In this document: piece by piece, positions 33,251-59,524 of the stretch
Numbering within the stretch: position 1 is the first letter of the stretch
Layout: each line of letters begins with the position of its first letter
From: Hydrangea macrophylla
Taxonomy: Eukaryota; Streptophyta; Magnoliopsida; Cornales; Hydrangeaceae
Direction of reading: 5' to 3'
Assembly (NCBI GenBank): GCA_033977485.1
Contig: CM066988.1
Span: forward strand, 30,748,001 to 30,812,000
DNA length: 64,000 nucleotides
The notes under the pieces: generated by a model
Told to the model about the DNA's origin: nothing
What the model saw: the letters and a program-made list of their open reading frames with translations, nothing else
Database searches by the model: none
Position numbers and translations under genes: made by a program

Positions 33251-33645
33251 GATGATAACGAGTATCGCCTACAAGAGACATATTGATCAACTAAAAGTCT
33301 TCTCGTAGAAACGAAACCAAGATAGAACGAGAAGTAACAAGAGCTAACAGTTCTACAAAACAATACATCAAACAACCAACAATCAATAGCAAAAGTACTT
33401 CTGGTACATATATATCAAAAGATGTACCATGGAGTACACAGTAACCATACCATGTACCACGTGGGACAAGGCTAAAACAGTACTAAGGTCAACTACTACT
33501 ATCTATACAAAGCTAGGGTCAAATAGCTATCTCTCAAGCCCCCAAAAATCTAGTGGACAACATGTCCTAATAAAACTAACAAAACTAAACTTGCAGGTCC
33601 TGACTCAAAAGTCGTCAGCGTCTGATCTTGCTGGTGGTGCCTCGT
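33251..33645 (-). other. Spacer between extra ORF and gag; left side of Athila-like insertion
   Basis: Non-coding except its first part: on - the extra ORF continues from the insertion site for about twelve codons to a TGA at 33606-33608. The rest is an A-rich spacer with no recognised feature. The terminal CTCGT (33641-33645) pairs with CTTGT at 60843-60847 as target duplication with one change. Confidence 0.7.
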
Positions 33646-34962
33646 TGATGTTGTCAATATCAAGATATAAAAGTATACTTTACTTTTCTAAAGATTTGTA
33701 GTAGTGAAAGTAAAGGTCGAACCCACAGAGATTGAAATACTACAGCGCTTTAATTTTAAAACCTAAATTTAATTAATTAAGAGAACGGAATTGGATTTGA
33801 ATTTTAATTAAACTAAGAACAATGAAAGTAAATCTAAATTATGAAAGCAATTAAAAATTATTTTTATAAATATGTTTAGGGAACCTAGGATTGCAAATCC
33901 ACCACTAGCTTCATAATAGGAATATTTATGCATTCAATTAGCTTACTAAGTTGGATGATTATGGGGAATTGTGGCTACAAGCCCAATTCCTCCGTCAAGA
34001 AAATAATCATGGTTCAAGCACCAACATATTCCATCTTTGGTTAGCACGAATTATCCCACACTAAACTAGGGTTGTGACATAATTTGTCTAATCTAGGCAT
34101 GGATTATTCGGATACTTGATAGCACAAATCAATAAAGCACCATCACATGTAAATAATCTAAACAAGCACAGCGAGCATAGATCATTGAGCACATCACAGT
34201 CAAAATAGATCTAAGACAAGAATAAACTTTGAAAGCAATGATTTAATCAATAGAAGTTCGATTTATTTATAAAAATCCTCGGAACATGTGACTGTCATCC
34301 ATACATAATAAAACTAAAATAAAAACATAAATAAAACCCTATTACTCGGCTAGGGCTTCATTGAAACCCTAGATCTATGTCTAAGCTGCCATGGAAGTGG
34401 AGATCGGCAAGTAGTTGATGGAGGAGGCCATGGAGATCCTTGGTCTTCTTCTTCTTCTCCTTGCTTTTCCCTCTTCTATGGATGGTAGTATATGTATATA
34501 TGGCTGTATGTAATATTTGGCAACCCTTTAATTGAAGTAAATTAGAGTATATATAGATTTACAATAAGTTTTTGGAAGCTTTCCTAACTCAAAATGCATT
34601 AAAACTGCTGTATTTAGCTTTCCAGACGTAATTAGGCAGTTTCGTTCGCATAGGAATCATCAGTATACTGAAATACGCATCTTTGCTTTTTGTACGGATC
34701 GTGCGAGCGCGACATTTGGTACTTCGCGCGCGCGGATCGCGCGAGCGATTCTGGGATTTTCGCGCGATCAGACCGCGCGAGCGATGTGGGTTTTTCAGCT
34801 TCTTTTTGCTTGCTTTTTCACCCTGTTTAGCCTGATATACTTGATTTATTTCAAAACCTGTCAGAAAATAGAAAACGAAGTAAAAATATACAAAAACAGG
34901 ATAAAAAGGTACTAACAAATGCTCGTTATGGTGTATAAATAGGACTTGTTCTCTCCCGATCA
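33646..34962 (-). repeat. 3' LTR of Athila-like - element
   Basis: Has the family CTAGGGTTTCAATGAA block (here as its complement near 34360), TATATATA at 34548-34555 and the GCGCGAGC cluster at 34696-34790. Confidence 0.92.
34696..34790 (-). promoter_or_regulatory. CpG palindrome cluster of Athila-like - LTR
   Basis: GTGCGAGCGCGAC, TCGCGCGCGCGGATCGCGCG, AGCGATT, CGCGCGATCAGACCGCGCGA. Lies about 140 bp upstream (on -) of the TATATATA at 34548. In the other LTR (60580-60665) units are gained, lost and moved, whereas flanking sequence is nearly the same. Confidence 0.55.
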
Positions 34963-34977
34963 CACCCCCAAACCTAC
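34963..34977 (-). other. Polypurine tract of Athila-like - element
   Basis: GTAGGTTTGGGGGTG on -, identical to that of the + paralogue (20887-20901). Confidence 0.8.
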
Positions 34978-38558: not shown

Positions 38559-39090
38559 CCGATTGTAGACACCCCGATTTTGACCAAACGTCAAATCCAG
38601 GGATTGGTTACCTCTCAAAAGACCGATGATGACAATGACTGGTTACATTCGAAGATTTCCCAGGAAATTCAAAATCTTCAATTGATTCTTCAAGACAAAA
38701 TTCAAAATTAAAAATAGAAAAATATAAAAAGAAAAAAGAGAGAGAGAGTTTGGGTATTCGGGAGAAACTCGAACAAAGAAGAACGTGTGAGAAACACAGT
38801 CTGGGAACCAGTTTTTAAGAGAATAAAAAAAAAAAGAGAAAAGAAAGAAAAAAAAAAGAGAGAGAAGTTCTTTTGAAAGAAATAGAAGAACAAAATAAAT
38901 AAAAATCTTGGAAAAAGGAGAAAATACAAAAAAAAAAAAGTTGTATATTTAGATGTATACCATGCACATGGTTGATACCATGCACATGGGGGATCTTAAT
39001 GCAAATATACACATACATAAAATAAGAAAATTGTGTTTACCCCAACATATTTTCGAAAAATCAAAAAGAGGGACAAAAATCAGTTAGCCC

Positions 39091-39215
39091 CGGCACGCGG
39101 AAAACGCGGCGGCACTCACTGAGTGCCGCGCCGGCACTCTCTATTTGCCGCCCGGCATTCAGTGAGTGCCGCCCGGCATTCAGTGAGTGCCGCCGGCACC
39201 CATCGAGTGCCGCTG
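39091..39215 (+). promoter_or_regulatory. CpG palindrome cluster of Tat/Ogre LTR
   Basis: CGGCACTCACTGAGTGCCG at 39110-39128 (9-bp arms), followed by CCGGCACTCTC, CGGCATTCAGTGAGTGCCG (twice) and CGGCACCCATCGAGTGCCG. Ends about 95 bp before the TATA box. Repeated in the 3' LTR (about 54405-54530) and again, inverted, upstream of the antisense ORF. Confidence 0.6.
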
Positions 39216-39309
39216 GCTGTAACAGACTGCTTTTCTCACATGTTCTAGAAGAAATCTTTGCACATGGGTCTCCACCCGAATTTACCCATTTATCCCTGGA
39301 TTGATGGTC

Positions 39310-39317
39310 TATATAAA
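39310..39317 (+). promoter_or_regulatory. TATA box of Tat/Ogre 5' LTR
   Basis: TATATAAA in GATGGTCTATATAAACAAAC; also in the 3' LTR at 54624-54631 and in the old relative at about 8728-8735 (-). Confidence 0.75.
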
Positions 39318-39890
39318 CAAACCTTCTCTTCCATTTTTGGGGGACTTGGCATATACTTGAATCAATACATATACTTGAATTTAGAGAGAGAGAGATATAC
39401 AAAATCATATAGAGAGAAGAAGAATTTCTTGAAGAAGCTTGAAGAATTTGAAGAACTTTTGAAGAAAATCTTGGAAGATCTTCACAAGAAGTTGAAGAAT
39501 CCCTTGAGGTTTTAGAGGTAACCTCTCAATCACTTGATAGAATTAGGCCATTCAATCACAAGTTCATAGTTCTAGGAACTTTACACATTTTCAAAACCTC
39601 TCTTCTTACCTCATTTCATCACACACCACTTAGAACTTGTGATTGAATCTCATATTATTTCATTGATTTGGATCTAATTGATGCCTTGGGTTTAAAATAA
39701 ATTCAACCTTGAAGATTTGTGTTCTTAGTTTTCTAAGTAATCTTTGATTTTCCTTATTTATATTTCATCCAAAAGGTTCATGAGATCTTCCATATCTCAT
39801 AGAATCTCTTTGAGTTTGATTATTTAATTTCCTATGATCTTATGATCTATATGGAGATTAGAATGAATCATAGTCTTACATATAATTAGT

Positions 39891-40300
39891 GAGATTCAAG
39901 TCCTAATCCATGACTTGAACCTCTCCATTAAGAAATCTTGTGGAATACTTACTATATTCCAATGAGGTTTAAGTAGATTTTAACTTCATTTAGTCTCCAA
40001 TGACCATCAAATGGTAGGAGAAAATGTGAGATTCAAGTCTTAATCCATGACTTGAACCTCTCCATTAAGAAATCTTGTGGAATACTTACTATATTCCAAT
40101 GAGGTTTAAGTAGATTTTAACTTCATTTAGTCTCCAATGACCATCAAATGGTAGGAGAAAATGTGAGATTCAAGTCCTAATCCATGACTTGAACCTCTCC
40201 ATTAAGAAATCTTGTGGAATCCTTGCTATATTCCAATAAGGTTTGAGTAGATTTTAATTTCATTTAGACTCCAATGACCATCAAATGGTAGGAGTAATAA
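39891..40300. repeat. Three tandem units of 137 bp in Tat/Ogre LTR
   Basis: Units start GAGATTCAAGTC at 39891, 40028 and 40165; the first two are almost identical, the third has diverged and grades into related sequence to about 40430. The same three units lie in the 3' LTR from about 55205. Confidence 0.88.
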
Positions 40301-42003
40301 GTTGAATTCAAACTTGGGTCCATAGGTTTGAGTTCATTATTTGAGGATTTTGTGAAGTTCATTTCAATACTTCATCAAGATCCATAAGTGTAGTATGCCT
40401 CATAGTCTTCAATGACCATCAAATGGTAGAAGAAATAGTTTGGTTTGAGCCCCAACTTCATGTTCTAATAGTTGAGGCCAATCAATAAACTTGAACTAGC
40501 AAAATGAAACAGTGGGTTCACAAACTGTTTTTAATCAAGGATTTTTAGTTTGAAATCCGACCGTTGGAATCGAATGAAACCAACGGGAAAATGTTCATAA
40601 CACATTTCTCTACCACTGTGATTTTTGTTTTAGTAAGATCTTGTGATTAGAATGGTTTGATCATGGTTTTTGTGAGCTAAATACAATCTGTCCAGAGTTT
40701 TAAAATACTTTCAGAATAGTAAGTCCGTTTTGAAATTAATAAATCAGAACCCTAATTAAGTTTTTGGGGTCTCAAATAATTTTTTATAAGTACCTTAATG
40801 TGTTAGGAAGGTACCCTAAAAAGATCTAAATGTTTCTCATTTTTTTACTATTTTTAGAAAATCATACAAGATCTCTGGACAGAGAGTTGCAGAATCCTGA
40901 GTGAGGTCTAGTATTTTCCATATTCCCGGAGATCTAACCGTTGAAATCTTGATTTTCAAATTGGGTTAGAAACTAGACTCACAGAAGCATAACATATCCA
41001 AAGATCATCAAGATCTAACCGTTGAATTATTTTATTCTTATTTTTGAATGGCTGGTCTGCTCTCTGTAAATCACAAAAAAACTGCTACTGTTTTGTCTAA
41101 ACTCGTTTATTTTTGATTCAAATGGTCTCCTAATGTCTTGAGACCCAAACCATGTTTTGAGTAATGATAATTTGACTTAAATCCAGAGGTTTAATGATCC
41201 AAATTAGTGAATAAATTCACATCTCACTCTTGTTTATAATCATTCATTCATTCATATACATTGATGCTTATAATTAGGAATAGTTCTTGAACAAAGTTGG
41301 ACTTAGTTGAATTTAATTGAATATGACTTAGGATTGATTACTTTTTGATATTATACCTAGTATAAAGCATGTGTACTAACCTTTATTTTGTAGCGCTTTG
41401 AGGTACAATTTCTCAACCCTTCTCTAGTTTAATCTACTTCATTGATTTTAATTGATTTTTCGACCCCATGTGCGACACCTTAGCTCAGGTTTTGCCTTAT
41501 GTGAATATATGAATTAGAGACCTTTTCTTAGGATTTCTATTCTTGCATGCATTACACGTTTAATATTCGCGGCCGGATCCCGGGTATGTTTTCTAGTTCT
41601 CTATTGCATATCATATCGCTTGCTACTTGAATTACATGGCTTATGAATGATATTTTGCCAATTGTAATTTTACACCCTTTTGACATGCTTTTGTGATGTA
41701 TATATATATATATATGTATTAGTTGAGGGCATGCTTAGATTAATAATTTGATTAAAAAGGATGTTGAGTAGAGGCCTATCGCGAGATAGGATGAAAGGGG
41801 GTGTTTTAGTCCGTCGGGCTCCTTCCCCTTTCATTCCATAATCCCCGGACCCAGTTAAATCTTTGGTTTCGCAAAAGATCAGTTGCTTTTAAAAAATGGT
41901 TTCTTAATTTTTCCTTTTAAAAATTAAGTGGCGACTCTTTGAATTTGAAAAGTGTTTTAAAAAGTGGGTAAAATTTGAAAGAAAACCTGCGGTATCCACA
42001 ATC

Positions 42004-42053
42004 TGGCGACTCTGCTGGGGATCGAACCCAGAATCTCTGGTTTCGCAGACCAG
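42004..42053 (+). other. Extended primer binding site, complement of tRNA-Arg 3' half
   Basis: TGGCGACTCTGCTGGGGA (42004-42021) is the standard 18-nt complement of the tRNA-Arg end including CCA. The match to plant tRNA-Arg(ACG), recalled from memory, continues for 50 nt through the T arm, variable loop and anticodon arm to position 27. Only two positions differ, both in the anticodon loop (42042, position 37, and 42046, position 34). The anticodon stem CTGGT...ACCAG is intact. It is followed by an imperfect fold-back copy (42049-42071). Confidence 0.85.
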
Positions 42054-42071
42054 AATTCTGATTTTGGGTTC

Positions 42072-43267
42072 ACTCGAGGATTAGACTTGAAAGCATCCTT
42101 TTTAATCAAATTAAGTAATTTTTGTGTGCCCGTTGCATTGCACTTGCATGTCTCGCCAGTCGATTGCACGGAACTATGACCTTGGAGGCTCGGGGCAACC
42201 CGGTCGGTCAAGCCATCATGGGGCCGTGTGGTCACCCTTGATCTCGTACCATGTGTTGGTATATGAAGCATCCTATCGGGTGTGTGTCAAGGGTCCCTTA
42301 TTTGACCAAAACCCGGCCTTTGCATAATAGCTTCTATAGAACCTTTCGAAATTAGGGAATTGATTCTTGATTAGGATTTATATGCTAGGAAGTTTTGTAT
42401 GCCCGTAAGGGATTATTTGAGATGATGACGACGCTTGCTTGATAGAATATATGTAAATCACTTTTGAGCGATTCTTTCTTATGTCCCACGACATTTGGGA
42501 ACATGCTAGATCTTGATTATGTGATTACATATCTTACATCTTGCTAAGCTAAGCATCATTGACCTTGTATGCATCCAAATTCATGAAGAGTATGACGATG
42601 GTCCGATCATGTGATCCTCCCACCCAAAAGATTTTAAATACGTTTTATAGAGGTGTTCAATCACTTTTTTTCAAAATTGTTGGAATTTACTTTCGGATTA
42701 GAATTTCAAATCAAACCGTATGTTGGAACCCAAATTCTTGAAAGAATTGGAAAGTTTTACCAACTAAAGGAATGCTTTTTCAAAGCAAAATTTGGACCTA
42801 ATCATCTTTTTGTTAAGGAATATAATCCAAGAAATCTCTGCAATTAAAGAAGTCCTTTTCAAATAAATTTCAAAAGCAAAGTTTCAACCCAATCATCTTT
42901 TATTTAGAAATGTTGTTGTTTTCAAAGGAAAGCTTCTTAAGGAATTTTGGAAAAGATCCCATCATCTAGGGGAAATACTTGGATTTCCAAAAATTCTAAA
43001 TTTGAAAACCTTGAAGGGGTAAAAAAGGGATCACAATGAAAGGAGAAATTAGCACACTCAACATGGATGAGGATTTTATGTGCTTATGTGTTTATGTGTT
43101 AGGATTAGAATTTTCTTTTACTTTGCATATAGAATAGGCACACACACACACATGCATTTGCATCCGTGTGGCATATGAATCATTCATGAAAGCATATAAA
43201 TCAATAATAAAAGTAAAAGAAATAATGGTAAGAAATAAAAAAGGTTGTTAAAATAATTGAAACAAAT
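42072..43267 (+). other. Leader of Tat/Ogre element
   Basis: 1.2 kb untranslated sequence between PBS and gag. Contains a GC-rich stretch (42120-42310) and AT-rich sequence with a short CA run (43139-43151). Short open frames here have no recognisable domain. Confidence 0.6.
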
Positions 43268-46200
43268 ATGGTTGTAGGTAAAAAGATAGAATCAACCACG
43301 AGCATAGCCTGGTACAGAGATTCTACTGCAAGATTAGTGAGAAAAGAGATGGCACAAGAGGCAAATGCGAGGGAAATGGCAGAGTTGAGAACAATAGTGG
43401 AACAGCAAGCGGGTCAAATGACTAGAATGATGACCATGATAGAAGCACTAGCACGACAGCAGCCAGGCAATGATCCTCCCCACAGGGATGAAGATTGGTT
43501 TGATGAGGCAGAAGGGATTGAAGCGAGGGAGAAACTAGAAAAGGAAAGGGCTGAGAAAGACAAGCTGATGACTGAGAAAATGGAGAAGTTGGAAAGGGTG
43601 GTCCGAAAAGCCCAAGGAGTTGACACCTATTTGTTGGAGTTAGAAGGATTGTATGAAGGGGTTTGTGAGGTATTGCCCGCAGGATTTAAGATGCCTGTAT
43701 TTGATAAGTTTGATGGAACGGGGAACCCGCGCAGCCACATCAGAATGTGTATAGGGGCATTTCAGCCCAGCGGTCTAAGCACTGGCATGATGGCAGTCTT
43801 GTTTCAACAGACTTTAACTGGGGCTGCTTTGTCTTGGTATCTCACTCTGGAACCAGGGAAGACTAGGAATTGGGAAGAAGTGGTAAAAGCGTTTGTGGCC
43901 CAATATGAATACAACCAAGACCTGGATGTTACTATCAGGGATTTGGAGACTACCAGACAGGGAAACAAAGAATCTTTTGCTGAATTTCTAAGCCGGTGGA
44001 GAGGAAAAGCTGCCAAGATGATACAAAGGCCGACTGAAAAAGAGCAAATCCGAATGCTGATAAAGAACCTCCAACCCGTCTATCAGGAGAAGATGAGGTT
44101 CCAATCCCTCAATACCTTCACCGAGGTGTTCGATGTAGGAACCAGAATCGAAGATGCGATACAGGAAGGGATCATTAAAAAAGAGGAGCCAGTAAACAGG
44201 TACAGACGGCCGAACTATGGAACAGGAGGAGGACATTCGGGGGGTCATTCTGGGTCTACGGATGTGAACGCACTAAGCGAACCTGAGAAAAAGTTTGATA
44301 TAACCAGAAGTTACCCAAAGAGGGTAGGGGACAAGCCTTTAAGAAGGTTTTCAGAGTTGGGAGTATCCTTGTCCACGGCTCTCGATAGGCTGGTGGCAAA
44401 AGGACATCTCAGCCTACTAGAGCCGCGACCCAGACCAAATCCACTACCTCCGAGTTTTAAATCTGATTTATATTGCAAGTTCCATCAGGAGCAAGGGCAC
44501 TCAACTGACCGGTGTTTAAGACTGAAGCATGAGATTCAAGATTTGATTGACAAGAAAATAATATCTGAACCACCCACCAACCCACCAAATGTTACCAGGA
44601 ATCCGCTACCAGAACATCATGCTGTACCACCACCCAGAATTTACTACTTGGGAAATGGGGAGAACTCTTTTGATCCATCAGCATTGATTACTAAGTTGGG
44701 AAGTCCGAAAAAAGCCTATCAAATATTGGAGGATTCACAGATCTGCACTCTAAAAGGGCTGGTAGATGAAGGCAAAGGGAAAGAAATAGAAGAGACTGGT
44801 GACGCAAATTGGTGGGCACCTGAAGCTGATAATTTACTTTGGTACAAAGGGGACGATGTTCAGAATCACAAGGAGGACCTTTGGTATGAAAGTGAAGAGG
44901 AAGGTGTGGAAGTTACTAAGGCATGGGATGGACTTTGGGTTAAAGAAGGAATCAGTCACCTCACACGATCTGAGAGACATTTTAAACCACATGAACTTGA
45001 GGAGGATCACCCGGAACAGGAAATGAGTAAAGGAAAGGGAAAACTGAACGAGGAAGAAGAGGAGGACAGAGTCTTAAGACAAATGAAGAAGACACAAGCA
45101 AATATCACTATTTGGGGGTTGCTGATCGCTTCCAAGCGCCATAGGCAAGCAGTACTTGATGCTCTCAATCAGTCAGATGTCTCCATCAATGTTACTCCGG
45201 AAGATCTCGTCGGCATGATCGGTAGAAGTCCAAGTCTTGCTATATCATTTTCTGAAGCTGACTTACCTCCTGGGGGACCTGTTTTCAATAAGCCGTTGCA
45301 CATCACCGTTGAGTGTCTAGGAAATTCTCTACCTGCTTGCCTTGTCGACAACGGGTCTGCATTAAATGTATGCCCTTTTCGAACAGCTAAAAGGATGGGG
45401 CTCGATGAATCCACATTTATACCATCGGAACAAAAGGTGAGGGCTTATGATAATACTCTACGGGCAGTGATGGGGATCATCTTTCTGAATCTCTTTGTCG
45501 GGACTGGTGAAAGGGAAACAGAATTCCAAATCATTGACATTCCTGCATCATTTAACCTACTTTTGGGAAGGCCGTGGCTTGATAGTTTGGGTGCCATTCC
45601 ATCAACCCTCCATCAGAAAGTTAAATACATTTGGAAGGACAGGGTATGCGATCTTCTGGGAGATAGCTGGATAAATGTGTCTGGAGCCTCATCAAGTGCT
45701 CCAATTTTAGAAGTACAGATGCAAGAAGGCGAAGCAAGTTTGGGTGGGTTTGAGTTCATTAATGTCATAGAAGAAGGGAAACCGAAGGAGTTCTTACCAC
45801 TTTATTTTGATCAATACGCCAGTCCACTGGTGGCCGGAATCATGAGAAAAATGGGGTTCTTCCCAGGGATGGGTTTAGGTAAGAAGCACCAAGGATTATC
45901 AGAATTCCCGAATATCATTACACAAACCCACACCCATGGGCTAGGATACTCACCAACCAAGGAGGAGTTGAAGAAGAAGAAGAAAGCAACTGATGCACCG
46001 ATGGAACCATACCTGAAAACTCTTAATGGGTACTTCATCAAGAAGGGGGAAGATTTTCCGTTTTGTGGTTTTCCAGAGCCATGGTTGGATGAAGCAGAAA
46101 AGTGTATGAAGCCAGGATTCGAGATCTTCTTTGCGCATGACTACTCTGATTACGAGGACCCTTATCTTCAACAGCCTGCAAAAACTGCCATTATTCAAGA

Positions 46201-47083
46201 CTGGGTATGTACCTTGGACGGCTCGGCAATGAAGAACCTGCTAGAAGAAAGGAGTGGAGGAACTGAAAAGGGGAACTCTGCAGAGAATAAGAATGAAGGT
46301 GAGAAAAGCCAGGAAGAAAAAGACAGCAAGGAGAATAAGGAAAAAGAGAAACCAGAGAACAAAGAGAAACCAGAAAAAGTGGAAATGGAGGAGATAACTC
46401 AGGAAGAGGAACGGGAAGATCATTTCATCGCTGATATAGGAGGGGAAAGTAAGAAAGAATGGGTCTTTGAGTCTAGTGATAAGTACCCCCCTCACCCAGA
46501 GTCTGTAATGGCCCAAATGAGGCGTCTTTCCATTTCTATGTCTGTTGTAATTGCTCCCAAAAAAGTTAATGAGAATGTGACCAATTCTGCTTACTTGACT
46601 GTGCATAATAATAACTGTGATGCATATAATGAAAATGATGAAATACCTCATGAATTGCAAAAATTAATTGAAAAAGAAAGTGAACCTGCATGCAAAATCA
46701 TGGAAAGCACTTTAACCATTAATCTGGGAAATGAAGGTAATCCACAAAATGTTTCTATTGGCTCCACACTTAACAATGAGGAAAGCGAAGAATTAATCAA
46801 TCTATTAAAAGAATTCAAGGATGTCTTTGCATGGTCTTATGATGATATGCCAGGAATTGATCCAGAAATTGTCCAACACCATATTCCCCTTTTCCCGAAT
46901 TCAAAACCCGTGAAACAAAAATTAAGGCGAATGAGGCCTGAATGGGCGCTTAAAGTGAAGGAGGAGGTTGAAAAGCAATTGAGAGCTGGATTCTTGATTG
47001 TCACTGAGTATCCTGATTGGGTCGCCAATATTGTACCGGTCCCTAAAAAGGATGGTCGTGTTAGGGTTTGCGTAGATTTCTGA
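43268..47083 (+). CDS. Tat/Ogre gag-protease-G-patch and start of RT
   Basis: 1271 codons. The ATG at 43268 is the first of the frame; ATG 43349 (MAQEANAREMAELRT) is an equally good start. A coiled-coil-prone charged stretch comes first, then capsid (FKMPVFDKFDGTGNPRSHIR, TLTGAALSWYLTL, about residues 140-280). A Cys/His knuckle (YCKFHQEQGHSTDRC) is near residue 400. The protease has CLVDNGSALNVCPF near 692 and LLLGRPWL near 765. A G-patch follows (MRKMGFFPGMGLGKKHQGL, about 856-905), then a Lys/Glu-rich linker (about 1000-1060) and the RT N-terminus (KKDGRVRVCVDF). The TGA at 47081-47083 replaces an Arg codon of the RT motif; the frame continues after it. Confidence 0.93.
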   Translation: MVVGKKIESTTSIAWYRDSTARLVRKEMAQEANAREMAELRTIVEQQAGQMTRMMTMIEALARQQPGNDPPHRDEDWFDEAEGIEAREKLEKERAEKDKLMTEKMEKLERVVRKAQGVDTYLLELEGLYEGVCEVLPAGFKMPVFDKFDGTGNPRSHIRMCIGAFQPSGLSTGMMAVLFQQTLTGAALSWYLTLEPGKTRNWEEVVKAFVAQYEYNQDLDVTIRDLETTRQGNKESFAEFLSRWRGKAAKMIQRPTEKEQIRMLIKNLQPVYQEKMRFQSLNTFTEVFDVGTRIEDAIQEGIIKKEEPVNRYRRPNYGTGGGHSGGHSGSTDVNALSEPEKKFDITRSYPKRVGDKPLRRFSELGVSLSTALDRLVAKGHLSLLEPRPRPNPLPPSFKSDLYCKFHQEQGHSTDRCLRLKHEIQDLIDKKIISEPPTNPPNVTRNPLPEHHAVPPPRIYYLGNGENSFDPSALITKLGSPKKAYQILEDSQICTLKGLVDEGKGKEIEETGDANWWAPEADNLLWYKGDDVQNHKEDLWYESEEEGVEVTKAWDGLWVKEGISHLTRSERHFKPHELEEDHPEQEMSKGKGKLNEEEEEDRVLRQMKKTQANITIWGLLIASKRHRQAVLDALNQSDVSINVTPEDLVGMIGRSPSLAISFSEADLPPGGPVFNKPLHITVECLGNSLPACLVDNGSALNVCPFRTAKRMGLDESTFIPSEQKVRAYDNTLRAVMGIIFLNLFVGTGERETEFQIIDIPASFNLLLGRPWLDSLGAIPSTLHQKVKYIWKDRVCDLLGDSWINVSGASSSAPILEVQMQEGEASLGGFEFINVIEEGKPKEFLPLYFDQYASPLVAGIMRKMGFFPGMGLGKKHQGLSEFPNIITQTHTHGLGYSPTKEELKKKKKATDAPMEPYLKTLNGYFIKKGEDFPFCGFPEPWLDEAEKCMKPGFEIFFAHDYSDYEDPYLQQPAKTAIIQDWVCTLDGSAMKNLLEERSGGTEKGNSAENKNEGEKSQEEKDSKENKEKEKPENKEKPEKVEMEEITQEEEREDHFIADIGGESKKEWVFESSDKYPPHPESVMAQMRRLSISMSVVIAPKKVNENVTNSAYLTVHNNNCDAYNENDEIPHELQKLIEKESEPACKIMESTLTINLGNEGNPQNVSIGSTLNNEESEELINLLKEFKDVFAWSYDDMPGIDPEIVQHHIPLFPNSKPVKQKLRRMRPEWALKVKEEVEKQLRAGFLIVTEYPDWVANIVPVPKKDGRVRVCVDF

Positions 47084-47799
47084 GATTTGAACAAAGCTAG
47101 CCCTAAGGACGATTTCCCTTTACCCCACATCGATGTATTAGTAGATAATACTGCAGGGCATGAACTTCTGTCTTTCATGGATGGATTTTCGGGGTACAAC
47201 CAGATCTTAATGTCACCAGAGGATAGAGAGAAAACAACCTTCATCACACCTTGGGGGACCTATTGTTATAGAGTCATGCCATTTGGACTTAAGAATGCAG
47301 GTGCAACCTACCAGAGAGCTGCCACCACGTTATTACATGATATGATTCATAAAGAAGTGGAAGTATATGTGGATGACATGATAGTAAAATCTAAGGAAAG
47401 AGGAGGGCATTTGGAGGCATTAAGAAAATTTTTTGAAAGGCTAAGAAAGTTTGGGATGAGGCTAAATCCACAAAAATGCACCTTTGGGGTCACCACTGGA
47501 AAATTACTGGGATTTCTAATCACCCAGAGAGGAATTGAGGTAGATCCTACCAAAATTCAAGCCATAACCGAAATGTCACCACCAAAGAACGAAAAGGAGT
47601 TGAGAGGGTTCCTAGGAAGAATACAGTTCATCAGCCGCTTCATATCCAAACTCACCATGACCTGTGACCCATTGTTCAAATTGTTGAGAAAAGGGGAGAA
47701 ATTCAATGGGATAGCCAATGCCAAAAAGCCTTTGAAAAGATCAAAACCTACCTTCAAAACCCGCCTGTTCTATCACCCCCTAAGCCTGGGAAACCTTTA
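47084..47799 (+). pseudogene. Tat/Ogre reverse transcriptase palm
   Basis: Same frame as the gag-protease part, opened by the TGA. It shows DLNKASPKDDFPLPHIDVLV, FSGYNQILMSPEDREKTTFI, MPFGLKNAGATYQRA and the active site VYVDDMIVKS, then the connection region RGFLGRIQFISRF. An apparent loss of one base near 47703 shifts the frame before the RNase H domain, so RT and the downstream enzymes cannot be made as one protein from this copy. Confidence 0.92.
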
Positions 47800-49971
47800 T
47801 TGCTATACCTATCCGTAACTGAAAACTCCATGGGTTGCATGCTGGCCCAGGAAGAAGAAGAGGGGCGTGTGGAAAAAGCCATATACTACCTGAGTAAGAG
47901 GATGACCGGATATGAATTGAACTATTCACCATTAGAGAAAGCTTGTTGGGCCCTGGTGTGGTGTACCCGTCGCCTTAGACATTACATGTTAGCCTTTCCT
48001 ATCACCCTGATATCCCGAATGGACCCACTCAAATACCTTTTTGAAAAACCTGCCCTAACCAGTAGGATATCCCGTTGGACCATGATGCTGGCTGAATTCG
48101 ACATTAGATATGTCACTTCCAAATCTGTCAAGGGGAGAGCCGTCGCCGAGTATTTAGCTGACCTCGCCATAGAGTCCGAAGAGAAGGGGGAATTCAAGTT
48201 CCCAGATGAAGAAGTAATGGAAGTAAAAGAGAGCCTTTGGAAAATGTATTTCAATGGAGCAGCTAATCAAATAGGGTACGGGGTAGGAATTATCCTCATA
48301 TCACCTAACGGAGCCCCCACTCCATTGGCCGTTAAGCTCAAGTATAATTCAACTAATAACACAGCAGAGTATGAAGCCTGTATAATTGGGATAGAAGCAT
48401 CCTTGGCTTTGGGAGTGGAAAAGATTGATGTTTTCGGGGACTCTAATCTGATAATATCGCAAGTAAGGGGTGACTGGAGAATTAAGCATGAGAAGTTGAG
48501 ACCTTACCATGAATACCTAGAGAGTCTGAAGATGCAATTCAAAAGAATTTCGTTCTATTACCTTCCCCGTGAGGAGAACCAATTGGCAGATTCCTTAGCA
48601 ACCTTAGCCTCAATGATCCACATTCCTGTGGGAGTCTCCATGATTCCTTTATCTATAGAAGTGAGAACTCGACCTTCGTATGAAACAATCGCCGCCATTG
48701 AAGAAGAGAGAGAGGATGAGATACCATGGTATATAGATGTTTGGAACTTTGTTGAAAAAGGAGAATATCCCGGAGGAGCTTCAGAGAAGGATAAGAAAGC
48801 AATTCGTAGATTTTCAGCCCAGTTTGTAATCTGTGCGGGAAAGTTGTGGAAGAAGTCCTACACCGGTTATAATTTAGAATGTCTATATGGAAGGGAAGCA
48901 AAGAAAATGATGGAAGAGGTACATGAAGGAGTCTGTGGGCCCCACATGAGCGGACACATGTTGGCCAAAAAGATAATTCGGCAGGGATACTATTGGACGA
49001 CCTTAGATAAGGATTGCTGTGAGTATGTTAGGAGATGCCATAAATGTCAGATTCATGCAAATTTGATGCATACCCCGCCTTCCCAACTCTATAGCATGAC
49101 CACCCCTTGGCCGTTCTCTGTGTGGGGTATTGATATCATCGGGGAAGTAATTCCGAAAGCTTCAAATGGGCACCGGTACATAATTGTGGCGATAGACTAT
49201 TTTACCAAATGGGTAGAAGCGGCATCATACGCAACTTTGAAGGCAAAAGATGTGGTGAATTTTATCCAGAAAAATATAATCTGCAGATACGGGGTACCAA
49301 ATGAGCTTATTTCTGACCATGGGAGTCATTTTCAGGGAGAGGTTATCCCATTCTTAGAGAAGTATAGGATCACCCACCACCAGTCCTCACCATACAGACC
49401 ACAAACAAATGGAGCAGTAGAGGCAGCAAACAAAAATGTAAAAGCCATTCTGGGGAAAATGACGGATACATACAGAGATTGGCATGAAAAACTACCTTTC
49501 GCTTTGTGGGGATATCGAACTTCCGTGAGAACCTCAACCGGGGCTACACCATACTCGTTGGTCTATGGGATGGAGGCTGTTTTACCAGTGGAAGTTGAAA
49601 TACCATCTCTAAGGGTTTTGGCAGAATGTGAAGTAAGTGAATTAGAATGGTTGCGGGGGAGATATGAGGAATTGATGTTATTTGATGAGAAGAGGTTGGC
49701 CGCTATAAACCATACTCGGGGATATCAGAAAAGGATAGCTCGTGCTTTCAACAAAAAGGTTCGCCCAAGGAAGCTTGCTGAGGGTGACCTGGTCCTCAAA
49801 GAACTTAAAACGCCTGTTTATGACCCACGAGGAAAATTCAAACCCAACTGGGTCGGACCATATATCATCAAGACACTCCTCTCCGGGGGAGCTGCCTATC
49901 TCATGGACCTAGATGGAGTTGAGTTTAAACAACCAATCAACCTCGATCGCCTCAAAAAGTACTTTGCTTGA
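47800..49971 (+). CDS. Tat/Ogre RNase H, archaeal-type RNase H and integrase
   Basis: The domain reading starts upstream of the first ATG because of the frameshift near 47703. RT-linked RNase H: LSVTENSMGCMLAQ, EKACWALVWCTRRLRHYM. Second, archaeal-type RNase H: KMYFNGAANQIGYGVGIIL, NTAEYEACIIGIEASLALG, FGDSNLIISQVRG, LADSLATLASM. Its first catalytic Asp is Asn (AAT 48253-48255). Integrase: HMSGHMLAKK...CHKCQIHANL finger, then WGIDIIGEV, LISDHGSHFQG and NGAVEAANKN (D, D, E), GATPYSLVYGMEAVLPVEVE and a GPYIIK C-terminal module. 723 codons, otherwise intact, ending TGA 49969-49971. Integrase would join element cDNA to chromosomal DNA. Confidence 0.92.
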   Translation: MLYLSVTENSMGCMLAQEEEEGRVEKAIYYLSKRMTGYELNYSPLEKACWALVWCTRRLRHYMLAFPITLISRMDPLKYLFEKPALTSRISRWTMMLAEFDIRYVTSKSVKGRAVAEYLADLAIESEEKGEFKFPDEEVMEVKESLWKMYFNGAANQIGYGVGIILISPNGAPTPLAVKLKYNSTNNTAEYEACIIGIEASLALGVEKIDVFGDSNLIISQVRGDWRIKHEKLRPYHEYLESLKMQFKRISFYYLPREENQLADSLATLASMIHIPVGVSMIPLSIEVRTRPSYETIAAIEEEREDEIPWYIDVWNFVEKGEYPGGASEKDKKAIRRFSAQFVICAGKLWKKSYTGYNLECLYGREAKKMMEEVHEGVCGPHMSGHMLAKKIIRQGYYWTTLDKDCCEYVRRCHKCQIHANLMHTPPSQLYSMTTPWPFSVWGIDIIGEVIPKASNGHRYIIVAIDYFTKWVEAASYATLKAKDVVNFIQKNIICRYGVPNELISDHGSHFQGEVIPFLEKYRITHHQSSPYRPQTNGAVEAANKNVKAILGKMTDTYRDWHEKLPFALWGYRTSVRTSTGATPYSLVYGMEAVLPVEVEIPSLRVLAECEVSELEWLRGRYEELMLFDEKRLAAINHTRGYQKRIARAFNKKVRPRKLAEGDLVLKELKTPVYDPRGKFKPNWVGPYIIKTLLSGGAAYLMDLDGVEFKQPINLDRLKKYFA

Positions 49972-50603
49972 AACCTTGCCTTTCAAAACTTCCAGAATTG
50001 ATGAACTACGCTTGACCTGATTCCCGATAGGGGATACGTAGGCAACCTGCTCGGTTCGGTCACAAAATAAAAGATGTATGAGTGTTCTTTCTAGCCTTAG
50101 CCGAACTACTGCGGACCTGATACCCGTTCGGGGATAAGTAGGCAGGCCCACAAGGCCCTCGGTCCAAAGCCCAAGAGTCCCAAGTTTTCACCATACCAAA
50201 CTAGGGGCAAACTTGCGTTTGCCCAAGAACCACATCTAAATCCAAAAACCAGGGGCAAACTTCGTTTGCTAGAACCAAGGAACCCAGACAAAGCTTAAAC
50301 CCATTTCTGGCTATCATAATGAGCATCAGGTGAAGACAAGCAAGAATTCATTATATGGAGAGATTAAAACTAAGAAAGAATCATGAAAGAGTAATAAAAC
50401 CTGAAGGAAACATTGAAGGAAAAACTGATCATAACACAGAGAAATTAAAGAAGTGCTAACTTTGATTCCTCATGATTAGGTCATTTTCAAAATACAAAAG
50501 AAAAAGAAAATGCATCACAAAAAATAAACATGGCAAAGCTAAGCAGAATTTGTCAAAAGTTTTTGCTTCGTCCTTCTTTCTTTTACTTTTGTCTGTCTGG
50601 AAG
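49972..50603 (+). other. 3' region after integrase: hairpin motifs and PPT-like hairpins
   Basis: Two copies of the conserved hairpin motif lie 100 bp apart (50003-50045 and 50103-50145). Two short perfect hairpins built on a PPT-like core follow (GGGCAAAC-TTGC-GTTTGCCC at 50205-50224 and GCAAAC-TTC-GTTTGC at 50255-50269). An A-rich tract leads to the antisense ORF. No sense gene. Confidence 0.65.
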
Positions 50604-51686
50604 CTACCCCCTGACCAGAGCCTGAATCTCGAGCGAATACTCTGCGGTCGGAACAACTGGAGTTGGAATCCTCCGGAAGGGAGCTGATACCCTATCATGC
50701 CAAGCCTCCGCAAATATCCTCGCAGTCGAAGGACGTAGAGCAGAACTCCTCGAGAAGTCGGCAGTAATAATATCGGGGACATCCTGGAGCAAGCCGAACT
50801 GACGGGCTACCCGGCTGGGAATGTAAAAGGTGGTGACTCGCAGGCCAGTCAACCAAATCCCGGGGCGCCCAGGAAGTCGTACCGCGACGGAGCAATAAGA
50901 CCATCGGGGGGATATCCAGCAGACGTCCTCATAACTCAAGTCTCGAAACCAAGCAAGCCAGCTAGAAACTGTGCGGGAGGGGTAATGGACACCCATGCGA
51001 TCATAAGGGAGCAGCCTCCCGAGGGGAAGGTGAGCAAAGAAGCCCAAACGCTCGAAGAGCCAAATCTGTAGGACGTGGGGTGACCCCGAGAGCAGCATCG
51101 ATCCGGCAGTATGTGCATGATCCAGGCCTAGCAAAGTCTCCCCCAGAATGAGCATAACGGCGCTCCGCATCTCTCGGAGGCCGCATACGACTGGAATCAG
51201 AATGTCAGTAGAAGACTGAAATAAAAAGTGGGAAAGCATCGCCAAAGAAAGGGCATTCCGCCTAATAACCTGATACCCCCCGTCATCAGGATCACCGATG
51301 GGTGCATAAGTGGAGGAGAGGCGATCAAAATCAATGTGACGATCACGAACAGAGGAGCTGGCAGCGCCCCGAGAGATGCCGAGAAGGGCCGATAAATCCT
51401 GAATATATCCTGCCTGAATCTGTGGAATAATCAAATCAGCATACGGATCAGTGTGAAGGATAGAGCTAAACTCCTCAAAGAGAGGACAGACCTCCTCGTG
51501 ACCAAACCGAAAGACGTGAAGGGAAGGATCCCAACACATGATAGCTGCTCTAAGAAAGTCCTCATCCAGAGCTATGTGGCGAAATGCGAATAGATCAGTC
51601 AGTCTGTGAGACTCAAAATTGAGTCGATCGATACTAGAGAGGGAATCCATCCATGGATATAAAGTATCAGAACTGATGAGGGCCAT
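50604..51686 (-). CDS. Intact antisense ORF of Tat/Ogre element, unknown function
   Basis: 360 codons without interruption, ATG 51686 to TAG 50604, opposite to the gag-pol strand. N-terminal part has LDEDFLRAAIMCWDPSLHVF followed by RFGHEEVCPLFEEFSSIL; the W-D-P...F-R-F-G...P-x-x-E-E-F pattern resembles the plant mobile domain / DUF7745-type proteins that ride on plant transposons. The middle has hydrophobic helices (LSLAMLSHFLFQSSTDILIP). Upstream on its strand lie a CT-rich 5' leader, a CpG palindrome cluster and a TTTATAAGG box, a plausible promoter. Antisense extra ORFs are known in Tat-lineage elements; their role is unclear. Preservation while pol carries lesions suggests recent selection or simply youth. 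Confidence 0.8.
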   Translation of the reverse strand: MALISSDTLYPWMDSLSSIDRLNFESHRLTDLFAFRHIALDEDFLRAAIMCWDPSLHVFRFGHEEVCPLFEEFSSILHTDPYADLIIPQIQAGYIQDLSALLGISRGAASSSVRDRHIDFDRLSSTYAPIGDPDDGGYQVIRRNALSLAMLSHFLFQSSTDILIPVVCGLREMRSAVMLILGETLLGLDHAHTAGSMLLSGSPHVLQIWLFERLGFFAHLPLGRLLPYDRMGVHYPSRTVSSWLAWFRDLSYEDVCWISPRWSYCSVAVRLPGRPGIWLTGLRVTTFYIPSRVARQFGLLQDVPDIITADFSRSSALRPSTARIFAEAWHDRVSAPFRRIPTPVVPTAEYSLEIQALVRG

Positions 51687-51786
51687 GAGAGAAGGTGAGA
51701 TTTTGGAGAAGAAATCCGAGAGAGGAGGGAGGAGAGAATGAAAAAGAAAGAAGAAGAAACCAAGTTTTGAACAAACTGCTGCTCAA

Positions 51787-51895
51787 ACCGGCACTCGGCG
51801 AAAAAGCGCCGGCACTCACTGAATGCCGCCCGGCATTTGGTAGAGTGCCGGCCGGCACTCAGTGAGTGCCGTTTCCCTTCACCGAGTGCCGCCGC
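51787..51895 (-). promoter_or_regulatory. CpG palindrome cluster and promoter of antisense ORF
   Basis: On -: GCGGCGGCACTCGGTGAAGG, CGGCACTCACTGAGTGCCGG, CCGGCACTCTACC, CGGCATTCAGTGAGTGCCGG. Same motif and similar number of units as the LTR cluster. A TATA-like TTTATAAGG lies upstream on - near 51968-51976, about 280 bp before the ATG. This is the only other cluster of this motif in the element. Confidence 0.5.
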
Positions 51896-52089
51896 GCATG
51901 ACAGGTGGCCTTTTTACCCCTAATTTTCACTATTTACATAAGGACCCCCGAATTTTGCTCCCATGTCCTTATAAATTTTCCCTCGTTTCAAAAGAACCCC
52001 CGAGGTTTGAAAGATGAGTTTTAAAGCCCTTTTATAAGTAGGAAAAGGCCCCTACTTGTTGAAAATTTTGTCAAGGAACACCCAATTGC

Positions 52090-52840
52090 AATAAATAAGC
52101 TGATAAAATCTAATCGACCCCAGATTTCTATGAAGATTGACTTGCTTGGGGTCTAATTGACTCCTGATTTTGAAAAAATAATAAGTTGAGTTCATTCGAC
52201 TCCGGATTACTCTGAATTTGAATTTGATTGAAGTCTAATTGACTTCAAATTTGGAAAATAAGAAAATTGAGTCTGATTGGCTCCGGATTTCTTTTAAATT
52301 GAATTTGATTGGAGCCTAAATTGACTCCCAATTTTGAAAAATTGATAAGTTGAGTTCATTCGACTCCGGATTACTCTGAATTTGAATTTGATTGAAGTCT
52401 AATTGACTCCAAATTTTGGAAAATAAGAAAATTGTGTCTAATTGACTCCTGATTTTGGAAAATGGATTCAGATTCTTTAAAAATTGATCTGCTTTGAGCC
52501 CGATTGGCTCCGATTATAAAAAAAAAATAGATTTGATTTGAGCCTGATTGGCTCTAATTCCTTGAAAATATATTGAGCCTGCTTGGCTTTGACTCTTTGA
52601 AAGATGGTTTAATTTGAGCCTGATTGGCTCCAATTCTTAGGAAATTGATTCGAATTGAGCCTGATTGGCTCTGATTCTTTGAAAATTGATTTGGTTTGAG
52701 CACGATTGGCTCCGGAACTTTGAAAAAGATTTGAATTGAGCCTAATCGGTTTCAACTCTTTGGAATTTGATTTGATATGAGAGGCTTGTTTGATTCTGAA
52801 ACTTTGAAAATTGATTTGGTTTGACTCCAAGTTAGGAGAA
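52090..52840. repeat. Degenerate repeats (GATTGGCTCCGATT / GATTGACTCC type)
   Basis: About 15 imperfect copies of a 45-65 bp unit such as TTGAGCCTGATTGGCTCCGA and TTGAAGTCTAATTGACTCC. Related in pattern to repeats of the older relative at 10440-11180 and 12030-12640. Variable 3' region of the element. Confidence 0.75.
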
Positions 52841-52857
52841 AATTCAGCCGACTGTTC

Positions 52858-53430
52858 TTTGATTTTAGAAATTTTGAGCATAGAGCTGCTCAATCTTTCT
52901 GCGTGCTACCTGATTCGGCTTAGCCGATCGGATGATTTTAGAAATTTTGGGCATAGAGCTGCTCAATCTTTCTGCGTGCTACCTGATTCGGCTTAGCCGA
53001 TCGGATGATTTTAGAAATTTTGGGCATAGAGCTGCTCAATCTTTCTGCGTGCTACCTGATTCGGCTTAGCCGATCGGATGATTTTAGAAATTTTGGGCAT
53101 AGAGCTGCTCAATATTTCTGCGTGCTACCTGATTCGGCTTAGCCGATCGGATGATTTTAGAAATTTTGAGCATAGAGCTGCTCAATCTTTCTGCGTGCTA
53201 CCTGATTCGGCTTAGCCGATCGGATGATTTTAGAAATTTTGAGCATAGAGCTGCTCAATCTTTCTGCGTGCTACCTGATTCGGCTTAGCCGATCGGATGA
53301 TTTTAGAAATTTTGAGCATAGAGCTGCTCAATCTTTCTGCGTGCTACCTGATTCGGCTTAGCCGATCGGATGATTTTAGAAATTTTGAGCATAGAGCTGC
53401 TCAATCTTTCTGCGTGCTACCTGATTCGAC
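52858..53430. repeat. Tandem array, eight units of 73 bp
   Basis: Units begin TGATTTTAGAAATTTTG(A/G)GC at 52858 and every 73 bp after; each holds TCGGCTTAGCCGATCGG, close to a palindrome. Units are nearly identical (single-base variants only), so the array grew recently. It lies just upstream of the PPT region of a Tat/Ogre element, a known seedbed for plant satellites. Confidence 0.92.
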
Positions 53431-53670
53431 TATGGAGCGTAAGGCGTGAAGCGGCTCAGTCGATCAAATGATTCTCAAAAGAGTATGCGTGTATGTCATT
53501 TACGATGTTCCTAGAGAAGGACGGTATCATGATAGGATAATTCAAACGTATAGGGTGCATTTAAAAGGAACTTGGGAGCATGGGGCATACAACCATTGAA
53601 CATGTGCATCACGATAAGATAGGTGCAGTCATCCGTGTGATTATTTGCAGTTGTGTGTTGTCCCTTACCC

Positions 53671-53712
53671 GAACTACGTCCTGGTCTGATTCCCGTTGGG
53701 ATACGTAGGCAG
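53671..53712 (+). other. Conserved hairpin motif near PPT
   Basis: GAACTACGTCCTGGTCTGAT, stem TCCC-GTT-GGGA, then TACGTAGGCAGC. Third copy of the motif in this element, 157 bp before the PPT; the old relative has its copy in the same place. Confidence 0.65.
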
Positions 53713-53868
53713 CTCATCTTTGAGCACGACCAGCATTTGGCCATCTGCGCACCCGATTTTGCAACGTACTTTTTGTTTTTACCTGGATTCGACTATTTGG
53801 TCAAAGGCTTGTCTTTCACACAGGCTTTGACATTCGTTTGTGATACGCGTTGCTTCACAAGCTCTGTC

Positions 53869-53882
53869 AAAGAGGGGCAAAC
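53869..53882 (+). other. Polypurine tract of Tat/Ogre element
   Basis: AAAGAGGGGCAAAC immediately before the 3' LTR TGTAGACACC. Confidence 0.85.
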
Positions 53883-56800
53883 TGTAGACACCCCGATTTT
53901 GACCAAACGTCAAATCCAGGGATTGGTTACCTCTCAAAAGACCGATGATGACAACGACCGGTTACATTCGAAGATTTCCCAGGAAATTCAAAATCTTCAA
54001 TTGATTCTTCAAGACAAAATTCAAAATTAAAAATAGAAAAATATAAAAAGAAAAGAGAGAGAGAGAGTTTGGGTATTCGGGAGAAACTCGAACAAAGAAG
54101 AACGTGTGAGAAACACAGTCTGGGAACCAGTTTTTAAGAGAATAAAAAAAAAGAGAAAAGAAAGAAAAAAAAAAGAGAGAGAAGTTCTTTTGAAAGAAAT
54201 AGAAGAACAAAATAAATAAAAATCTTGGAAAAATGAGAAAATACAAAAAAAAAGTAGTATATTTAGATGTATACCATGCACATGGTTGATACCATGCACA
54301 TGGGGGATCTTAATGCAAATATATACATACATAAAATAAGAAAATTGTGTTTACCCCAACATATTTTCGAAAAATCAAAAAGAGGGACAAAAATCAGTTA
54401 GCCCCGGCACGCGGAAAACGCGGCGGCACTCACTGAGTGCCGCGCCGGCACTCTCTGTTTGCCGCCCGGCATTCAGTGAGTGCCGCCCGGCATTCAGTGA
54501 GTGCCGCCGGCACCCATCGAGTGCCGCTGGCTGTAACAGACTGCTTTTCTCACATGTTCTAGAAGAAATCTTTGCACATGGGTCTCCACCCGAATTTACC
54601 CATTTATCCCTGGATTGATGGTCTATATAAACAAACCTTCTCTTCCATTTTTGGGGGACTTGGCATATACTTGAATCAATACATATACTTGAATTTAGAG
54701 AGAGAGAGATATACAAAATCATATAGAGAGAAGAAGAATTTCTTGAAGAAGCTTGAAGAATTTGAAGAACTTTTGAAGAAAATCTTGGAAGATCTTCACA
54801 AGAAGTTGAAGAATCCCTTGAGGTTTTAGAGGTAACCTCTCAATCACTTGATAGAATTAGGCCATTCAATCACAAGTTCATAGTTCTAGGAACTTTACAC
54901 ATTTTCAAAACCTCTCTTCTTACCTCATTTCATCACACACCACTTAGAACTTGTGATTGAATCTCATATTATTTCATTGATTTGGATCTAATTGATGCCT
55001 TGGGTTTAAAATAAATTCAACCTTGAAGATTTGTGTTCTTAGTTTTCTAAGTAATCTTTGATTTTCCTTATTTATATTTCATCCAAAAGGTTCATGAGAT
55101 CTTCCATATCTCATAGAATCTCTTTGAGTTTGATTATTTAATTTCCTATGATCTTATGATCTATATGGAGATTAGAATGAATCATAGTCTTACATATAAT
55201 TAGTGAGATTCAAGTCCTAATCCATGACTTGAACCTCTCCATTAAGAAATCTTGTGGAATACTTACTATATTCCAATGAGGTTTAAGTAGATTTTAACTT
55301 CATTTAGTCTCCAATGACCATCAAATGGTAGGAGAAAATGTGAGATTCAAGTCTTAATCCATGACTTGAACCTCTCCATTAAGAAATCTTGTGGAATACT
55401 TACTATATTCCAATGAGGTTTAAGTAGATTTTAACTTCATTTAGTCTCCAATGACCATCAAATGGTAGGAGAAAATGTGAGATTCAAGTCCTAATCCATG
55501 ACTTGAACCTCTCCATTAAGAAATCTTGTGGAATCCTTGCTATATTCCAATAAGGTTTGAGTAGATTTTAATTTCATTTAGACTCCAATGACCATCAAAT
55601 GGTAGGAGTAATAAGTTGAATTCAAACTTGGGTCCATAGGTTTGAGTTCATTATTTGAGGATTTTGTGAAGTTCATTTCAATACTTCATCAAGATCCATA
55701 AGTGTAGTATGCCTCATAGTCTTCAATGACCATCAAATGGTAGAAGAAATAGTTTGGTTTGAGCCCCAACTTCATGTTCTAATAGTTGAGGCCAATCAAT
55801 AAACTTGAACTAGCAAAATGAAACAGTGGGTTCACAAACTATTTTTAATCAAGGATTTTTAGTTTGAAATCCGACCGTTGGAATCGAATGAAACCAACGG
55901 GAAAATGTTCATAACACATTGCTCTACCACTGTGATTTTGGTTTTAGTAAGATCTTGTGATTAGAATGGTTTGATCATGGTTTTTGTGAGCTAAATACAA
56001 TCTGTCCAGAGTTTTAAAATACTTTCAGAATAGTAAGTCCGTTTTGAAATTAATAAATCAGAACCCTAATTAAGTTTTTGGGGTCTCAAATAATTTTTTA
56101 TAAGTACCTTAATGTGTTAGGAAGGTACCCTAAAAAGATCTAAGTGTTTCTCATTTTCTTATTATTTTTAGAAAATCATACAAGATCTCTGGACAGAGAG
56201 TTGCAGAATCCTGAGTGAGGTCTAGTATTTTCCATATTCCCGGAGATCTAACCGTTGAAATCTTGATTTTCAAATTGGGTTAGAAACTAGACTCACAGAG
56301 GCATAACATATCCAAAGATCATCAAGATCTAACCGTTGAATTATTTTATTCTTATTTTTGAATGGCTGGTCTGCTCTCTGTAAATCACAAAAAAACTGCT
56401 ACTGTTTTGTCTAAACTCGTTTATTTTTTATTCAAATGGTCTCCTAATGTCTTGAGACCCAAACCATGTTTTGAGTAATGATAATTTGACTTAAATCCAG
56501 AGGTTTAATGATCCAAATTAGTGAATAAATTCACATCTCACTCTTGTTTATAATCATTCATTCATTCATATACATTGATGCTTATAATTAGGAATAGTTC
56601 TTGAACAAAGTTGGACTTAGTTGAATTTAATTGAATATGACTTAGGATTGATTACTTTTTGATATTATACCTAGTATAAAGCATGTGTACTAACCTTTAT
56701 TTTGTAGCGCTTTGAGGTACAATTTCTCAACCCTTCTCTAGTTAATCTACTTCATTGATTTTAATTGATTTTTCGACTCCATGTGCGACACCTTAGCTCA

Positions 56801-57307: not shown

Positions 57308-57312
57308 CCGAT

Positions 57313-59500: not shown

Positions 59501-59519
59501 ATCCCCGGCAACGGCGCCA
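59501..59519 (-). other. Primer binding site, tRNA-Asp (perfect)
   Basis: On -: TGGCGCCGTTGCCGGGGAT, 19 nt complementary to the tRNA-Asp end; complementarity then ceases. A normal-length PBS, useful contrast to the 50-nt one at 42004. Confidence 0.9.
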
Positions 59520-59524
59520 AAAAT

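Follow-up and report, generated by a model that had tools for sequence, protein, structure and literature searches.

The primer-binding site (PBS) of an LTR retrotransposon in the 64-kb window, by which we mean the whole stretch of DNA that was analysed, continues for another 32 nt along its primer tRNA, such that positions 42004–42053 form an ungapped complement to positions 76–27 of a reference plant tRNA-Arg(ACG). We consider it probable, with moderate confidence, that this extension is a captured primer over-extension that was copied from a mature tRNA and later inherited.

The complementarity to tRNA-Arg continues beyond the PBS

As the reference, we used a plant tRNA-Arg(ACG) of the Arabidopsis type, which ARAGORN reads as tRNA-Arg(acg). 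Alignment to this sequence places the 18-nt PBS, the complement of tRNA positions 76–59, at 42004–42021 on the plus strand, beginning 3 nt past the LTR end at 42000. The 32-nt extension, the complement of positions 58–27, follows at 42022–42053 on the same strand and is indicated by alignment and by a sub-threshold Rfam match. As reverse complements, the PBS agrees with the reference tRNA at 17/18 positions, the extension at 30/32 and the stretch that follows at 7/26, which rules out a tRNA complement past position 27. The match had been predicted to run beyond the 18-nt PBS through the T arm, the variable loop and the anticodon arm to position 27, and this was borne out: instead of being lost beyond 18–20 nt, it goes on for 30 of 32 more positions of the reference tRNA. 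Both mismatches in the extension, opposite tRNA positions 37 and 34, had been foreseen as well. The accompanying statement that only two of the 50 bases differ holds for an isodecoder with A67; against the Arabidopsis-type tRNA, there is a third mismatch in the PBS, opposite position 67, and this could be an isodecoder difference.

The probability of at least 30/32 matches at one place is 2.5e-16 under equal base frequencies, which excludes a chance origin, and the next-best match to these 32 nt, on either strand of the whole window, reaches 21/32. Independently of the reference tRNA sequence, the Rfam tRNA model matches positions 42064–42007 on the minus strand with 23.3 bits (E 0.039 for 1101 bases searched), short of the gathering score of 29. 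We rejected a tRNA gene, as ARAGORN finds 0 of them in the window. Complement of the primer tRNA lies immediately 3′ of the PBS and without interruption (30/32), as in a primer over-extension sequence.

The remaining PBSs of the window are short. Measured to the first mismatch against reference tRNA ends, they extend for 14 nt (at 952), 19 nt (at 59519, minus strand) and 7 nt (at 15101, where the mismatch is internal), and a fourth, TGGTATCAGAGC at 61886 on the minus strand, for 12 nt by eye, in an LTR without delimited ends. Of the range of 12–19 nt that the original prediction had given for these four sites, the values 14, 19 and 12 stand, while the site at 15101 falls outside.

The extended PBS belongs to an Ogre-type Ty3/gypsy element

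Judged by its elements, the window resembles plant DNA with many nested LTR retrotransposons. The one that carries the extended PBS is a complete, nested Ogre-type Ty3/gypsy element with damaged coding regions, spanning 38564–57307. Self-BLAST and boundary inspection delimited its 5′ LTR (TG...CA) at 38564–42000 and its 3′ LTR at 53883–57307, both on the plus strand, and the two are 99.1% identical by BLAST (19 substitutions in 3425 aligned positions). A 5-bp target duplication, CCGAT, flanks the element at 38559–38563 and 57308–57312, and a purine-rich stretch precedes the 3′ LTR. The whole is enclosed by an outer LTR element, whose LTRs at 33645–34963 and 59524–60843 share 91% identity in self-BLAST.

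Domain profiles identified Gag, G-patch, RT, RNase H, RVT_3 and integrase frames on the plus strand at 43232–49971, in the order Retrotrans_gag, RVT_1, RT_RNaseH, RVT_3, rve, which is the gypsy order; the RVT_3 domain would represent an additional RNase H. The polyprotein is interrupted by a stop codon at 47081–47083 and a frame change within 47668–47818, and since the element otherwise looks young, this copy was probably either mobilized with help or has decayed since its insertion. An extra ORF lies in antisense orientation (minus strand) at 50604–51782 and matches DUF7745 (PF24924, 33.4 bits versus a cut-off of 26), while its match to the plant mobile domain PF10536 is sub-threshold (30.4 bits; cut-off 34.9).

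Ogre elements are characterized by a PBS for tRNA-Arg and by tandem repeats, and tandem arrays are known in the 3′ untranslated regions of such elements. In the present element, an array with a 73-nt period is located at 52787–53504, just upstream of the 3′ LTR, and both LTRs hold 137-nt tandem repeats (39752–40434 and 55066–55748). The Ogre-type traits that we found comprise the tRNA-Arg PBS (as judged against the reference tRNA), the long LTRs and the 5-bp target duplication. In the accessible parts of two descriptions of the lineage (PMC6317226, PMC5407846), the Ogre/Tat elements are, like the present one, very large and equipped with an additional RNase H, and the primers of non-chromoviruses include tRNA-Arg. 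The same descriptions give them an extra ORF resembling the plant mobile domain, to which the antisense ORF with its sub-threshold PF10536 match may correspond; such an ORF is present in 57% of Ogre elements according to the former excerpt (PMC6317226). By its sequence features, the element at 38564–57307 thus fits the Ogre group as portrayed there.

A second, worn copy of the extension lies in U5

Beyond the original prediction, we observed another copy of the tRNA-Arg complement in the U5 part of both LTRs. Windowed alignment and shuffles located this worn copy, which covers tRNA positions 57–27, at 41846–41882 on the plus strand, and sequence comparison revealed an identical one at 57153–57189 (plus strand) in the 3′ LTR. 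With two 3-nt insertions set aside, the U5 copy agrees with the extension at 28/31 positions, and with the tRNA complement at 26/31 plus the two insertions. Both variant bases, opposite positions 34 and 37, as well as the end at tRNA position 27 are common to the U5 copy and the extension. The U5 copy has three substitutions and the two insertions of its own, whereas the extension has no private change at all, which is suggestive of its maintenance.

The alignment score between the U5 copy and the extension (19) was unmatched in any of the 842 other 300-nt windows, and none of 2000 dinucleotide shuffles made from the final 300 nt of the LTR, and none of 300 made from the entire LTR, reached it. 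U5 scored 15 when compared with the plain tRNA complement, and 4/842 windows did equally well, which links the U5 copy to the variant-bearing extension. A scan of the internal region for more copies of the extension returned none (best score, 10). We also considered and rejected a duplication that would extend beyond the two copies into their surroundings, given that the likeness of their flanks was equalled by 200/1000 and 404/1000 shuffles, and that 993/1000 shuffles were as good as the upstream U5 flank when compared with the PBS.

The two LTRs are nearly identical, yet the U5 copy is worn, and we therefore take this copy to predate the present insertion. Barring a repeated writing of the variant bases, the extension would then be inherited too, and from the sequence comparison it is probably older than the present insertion. 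As the worn copy has the same two variant bases, these are probably no scar of the last replication cycle alone.

Two further features of U5 deserve mention. The initial 10 nt of the PBS, TGGCGACTCT, are repeated at 41929–41938 on the plus strand, 75 nt upstream of the PBS, and again at 57236–57245 in the 3′ LTR; the repeat may represent a former PBS or an additional contact with the tRNA. A match to the Rfam wcaG RNA at 41855–41942 stayed below the cut-off (30.8 versus 42 bits; E 0.0013) and is probably due to chance.

Possible traces of modified tRNA positions

The original prediction interpreted the extension as a record of the modifications of a mature tRNA, and this interpretation fared differently from position to position. 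Opposite position 34 of the reference tRNA the DNA carries C, which is the base that inosine predicts and which had been expected; the chance of hitting exactly this change is approximately 0.02 if two random, equally likely changes fall on 32 sites. The misreading claimed for m1G37 did not agree with the published signature that we found for this modification. Indeed, the extension shows G to A in the sense of the tRNA, while the change printed for position 37 of two Dictyostelium tRNAs is G to T (PMC8163159, as far as its text is accessible). In the same portion of that work, one of these two positions was called m1G by HAMR and the other by tRNAmodviz only, m1G may at times be read without misincorporation and signatures depend on the position. 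In Arabidopsis, m1I37 is read as T (PMC6874348). Given that m1G signatures vary and that the element's own polymerase may differ, the disagreement at position 37 is not decisive. C-to-T decay in a CCG context would account equally well for this base.

At position 58, m1A typically causes A to be misread as T or G, according to the accessible text of PMC8163159. The extension has the regular T opposite A58, so the misreading of m1A58 is absent, which weighs little since correct reading also occurs. The copy had further been predicted to stop beside dimethyl-G26, and it does end at position 27, adjoining G26. In the sections available of a study of Arabidopsis tRNAs (PMC11658184), misincorporation at m2,2G26 is widespread, with tRNA-Arg(ACG) unnamed in the main text, and truncations occur just 3′ of such modifications. 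In sum, of the three modified sites considered within the copy one fits, in addition to the end point: the C opposite position 34 and the end at 27 speak for a record of modifications, and the G-to-A change at position 37 and the traceless m1A58 do not. For endogenous retroviruses, the known tRNA modifications did not coincide with the positions of PBS mutations (PMC7472051, in the part available). Judged from the sequence, we regard it as plausible that the extension records tRNA modifications.

The two variant bases could also have a simpler source, namely an unmodified tRNA or tRNA precursor, or an unusual isodecoder, in which case they would be later mutations or the isodecoder's own bases. 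Two changes are few, the one opposite position 37 is a C-to-T change in CCG and hence would be typical of the decay of methylated cytosine in plant DNA, and two of the three private changes of the U5 copy are likewise C to T. However, the T-to-C change opposite position 34 is no decay change, and G34 in a eukaryotic tRNA-Arg would be unusual. Moreover, the stretch begins with the complement of CCA, which is absent from tRNA genes, even though a PBS would have such a complement anyway. Altogether, we consider an unmodified source unlikely.

Origin of the extension

Normal plus-strand strong-stop synthesis ends before m1A58, after copying 18 nt of the tRNA. The original prediction proposed that synthesis had instead read past m1A58 on a mature tRNA; the continuity with the PBS, the orientation, which is that of plus-strand cDNA, and the end at position 27 agree with this proposal, while m1A58 itself left no trace. 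The cDNA orientation and the continuity with the PBS make tRNA copying the simplest origin. We therefore picture the capture as follows. In an ancestor, the reverse transcriptase making plus-strand strong-stop DNA would have passed m1A58 on a mature, inosine-bearing tRNA that was still joined to the minus strand, and synthesis would have halted before dimethyl-G26. The over-long end would have been kept when the second strand transfer was resolved, such that the RNA of the element came to encode the complement. Since then, the extension would have been inherited and would render further over-extension harmless: over-extended plus strands would be transferable because products ending anywhere between positions 59 and 27 match the minus strand. 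The extension may also strengthen primer annealing. Besides the change at position 37 and the traceless m1A58, two points speak against the capture. When first transferred, a plus strand with an over-long end would fail to match the minus strand there, such that an extra repair or template-switch step would be needed, and the U5 copy is unexplained by the capture step alone, the flanks of the two copies being unlike.

With I34 counted as G, each of the 50 positions is able to pair with the tRNA, in keeping both with the capture and with an alternative view, in which selection made the stretch. Complementarity to the anticodon and T arms would have evolved or been kept for the selection and annealing of tRNA-Arg, the variants would have been tolerated as still pairing (C with I34, U with G37), and the upstream primer-activation signal (PAS) and anticodon-loop contacts would have their counterpart in the U5 copy. 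Under the same treatment of I34, the predicted duplex over the 50 positions amounts to −108.1 kcal/mol versus −38.9 for the 18-nt PBS, pairing is likewise predicted for the U5 copy (−44.9 kcal/mol), and the PAS and A-loop contacts of HIV-1 provide a precedent (PMC13191261, accessible text). Yet a stepwise gain of 32 contiguous complementary bases is unlikely without templating, an end at precisely position 27 is not what selection for pairing would lead one to expect, and in a mature tRNA m1A58 and m1G37 would each block one pair. Based on these arguments, pairing may be the present function of the extension and not its origin, and selection as the origin appears improbable to us.

We are similarly doubtful of a variant of the capture in which mature tRNA serves as the template for renewing the extension over many cycles. 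The polymerase of the element would habitually pass m1A58 and read as far as m2,2G26, with C always written opposite I34 and T opposite m1G37, and the U5 copy would be an earlier capture that decayed after losing contact with the template. Finally, a rebuilding of the extension from a U5 hairpin, with an older U5 donating the variant bases by recombination or template switching, is very unlikely: the variant bases are common to both and the U5 copy does score higher with the extension (19; 0/842) than with the plain tRNA (15; 4/842), but the extension agrees with the tRNA much more closely (30/32) than the U5 copy does (26/31 plus two insertions), the extension is contiguous with the PBS and the likeness between the flanks of the two copies does not exceed that of shuffles.

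Inverted repeats and predicted folding

An inverted-repeat search with shuffles revealed a perfect 20-nt inverted repeat, with one arm in the LTR (41744–41763) and the other in the leader (42094–42113; both given on the plus strand), that surrounds U5, the PBS and the extension. The inverted repeats of 200 shuffles reached at most 12 nt, and a scan of the 64 kb in 127 windows of 501 nt found none longer than 16 nt. By pairing over a long distance in the RNA, the 20-nt repeat could keep the PBS within a stem. The predicted fold of the 401-nt region has a z of −6.3. Around the copy of the anticodon arm, a hairpin is predicted at 42024–42071 (plus strand) from the inverted repeat 42024–42035/42060–42071, with a z of −2.74; its 12-bp stem was equalled in 15/1000 shuffles, and we therefore place little weight on it. 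The downstream arm, GATTTTGGGTTC at 42060–42071, has the sense of the tRNA, resembles it at 11/12 positions and is inverted relative to the T-arm part of the extension. From its sequence, it might have arisen when an over-extended plus strand folded back.

Search for relatives and precedents

The exact PBS pattern occurred once in viral contigs and 21 times in genome contigs. None of these 22 matches, inspected over 30 nt upstream and 60 nt downstream, had ATC before the PBS; one (L013) continues with TCAAACC, which is 6/7 like the tRNA complement, and then diverges. We took them all to be chance matches in prokaryotic or phage DNA. A longer pattern had 0 matches in genome contigs, tRNA-gene patterns had 0 in viral contigs, and protein-guided scans of the viral contigs with RNase H-integrase (two candidate stretches) and RT (one) yielded 0 confirmed relatives. 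Sequence strings were absent from the literature text that was searched, and in a literature search that mostly covered sources outside subscription journals, and these partly as excerpts, we found no description of a PBS extension of such a size in a retrotransposon.

Significance

The element may be the relic of an event in which a tRNA primer was copied too far, and its 32 extra bases of primer complement suggest that some plant polymerases pass the m1A58 block and that a genome can retain the product. If sister copies share the end and the base opposite inosine, the leaders of retrotransposons would become an archive in which past tRNA modifications, which leave no other fossils, can be dated. 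If the extension is instead rewritten repeatedly, the DNA of the family would continuously display how the primer tRNA is modified. In addition, the extension offers a test of how the second strand transfer deals with over-long ends.

Comparison with known systems

The available portions of the Ogre/Tat descriptions (PMC6317226, PMC5407846) make no mention of complementarity past the PBS; related arrangements are known from other elements. In the Ty1/copia element Bianca, with its half-tRNA-Ile PBS, the match likewise reaches the anticodon, with A34 edited to inosine, as described in the part of PMC6317226 that is accessible. The Bianca primer is a half-molecule of the tRNA, whereas the present element binds an intact 3′ end, from which its complement runs on. 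HIV-1 possesses extra complement to the T arm and the anticodon loop of its primer upstream of the PBS, in the form of the PAS and an A-rich loop (PMC13191261, from the text at hand), and the U5 copy can be compared with these. The HIV-1 motifs are separate, while the U5 copy looks like one worn, continuous stretch of tRNA.

The closest likeness is to the primer over-extension sequence of lentiviruses and spumaviruses, which lets over-extended strands transfer (Muthuswami et al. 2002, as cited in the accessible part of PMC13191261). There, as here, complement of the primer tRNA lies directly downstream of the PBS, and according to the same part, over-extended strands transfer only where the leader holds the matching complement. 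This sequence is thought to allow plus strands that have passed m1A58 to transfer still, and by analogy we propose the same role for the present extension. The lentiviral products that can transfer end at Psi55 or m5Um54 (PMC13191261, same portion), which would make the lentiviral stretch a few nucleotides long, as opposed to the 32 nt found here, which run through the T arm, the variable loop and the anticodon arm to position 27. The host likewise differs, being a plant Ty3/gypsy element in place of a lentivirus or spumavirus. As far as the sequence allows, the extension is best filed as an unusually long case of the known primer over-extension sequence.
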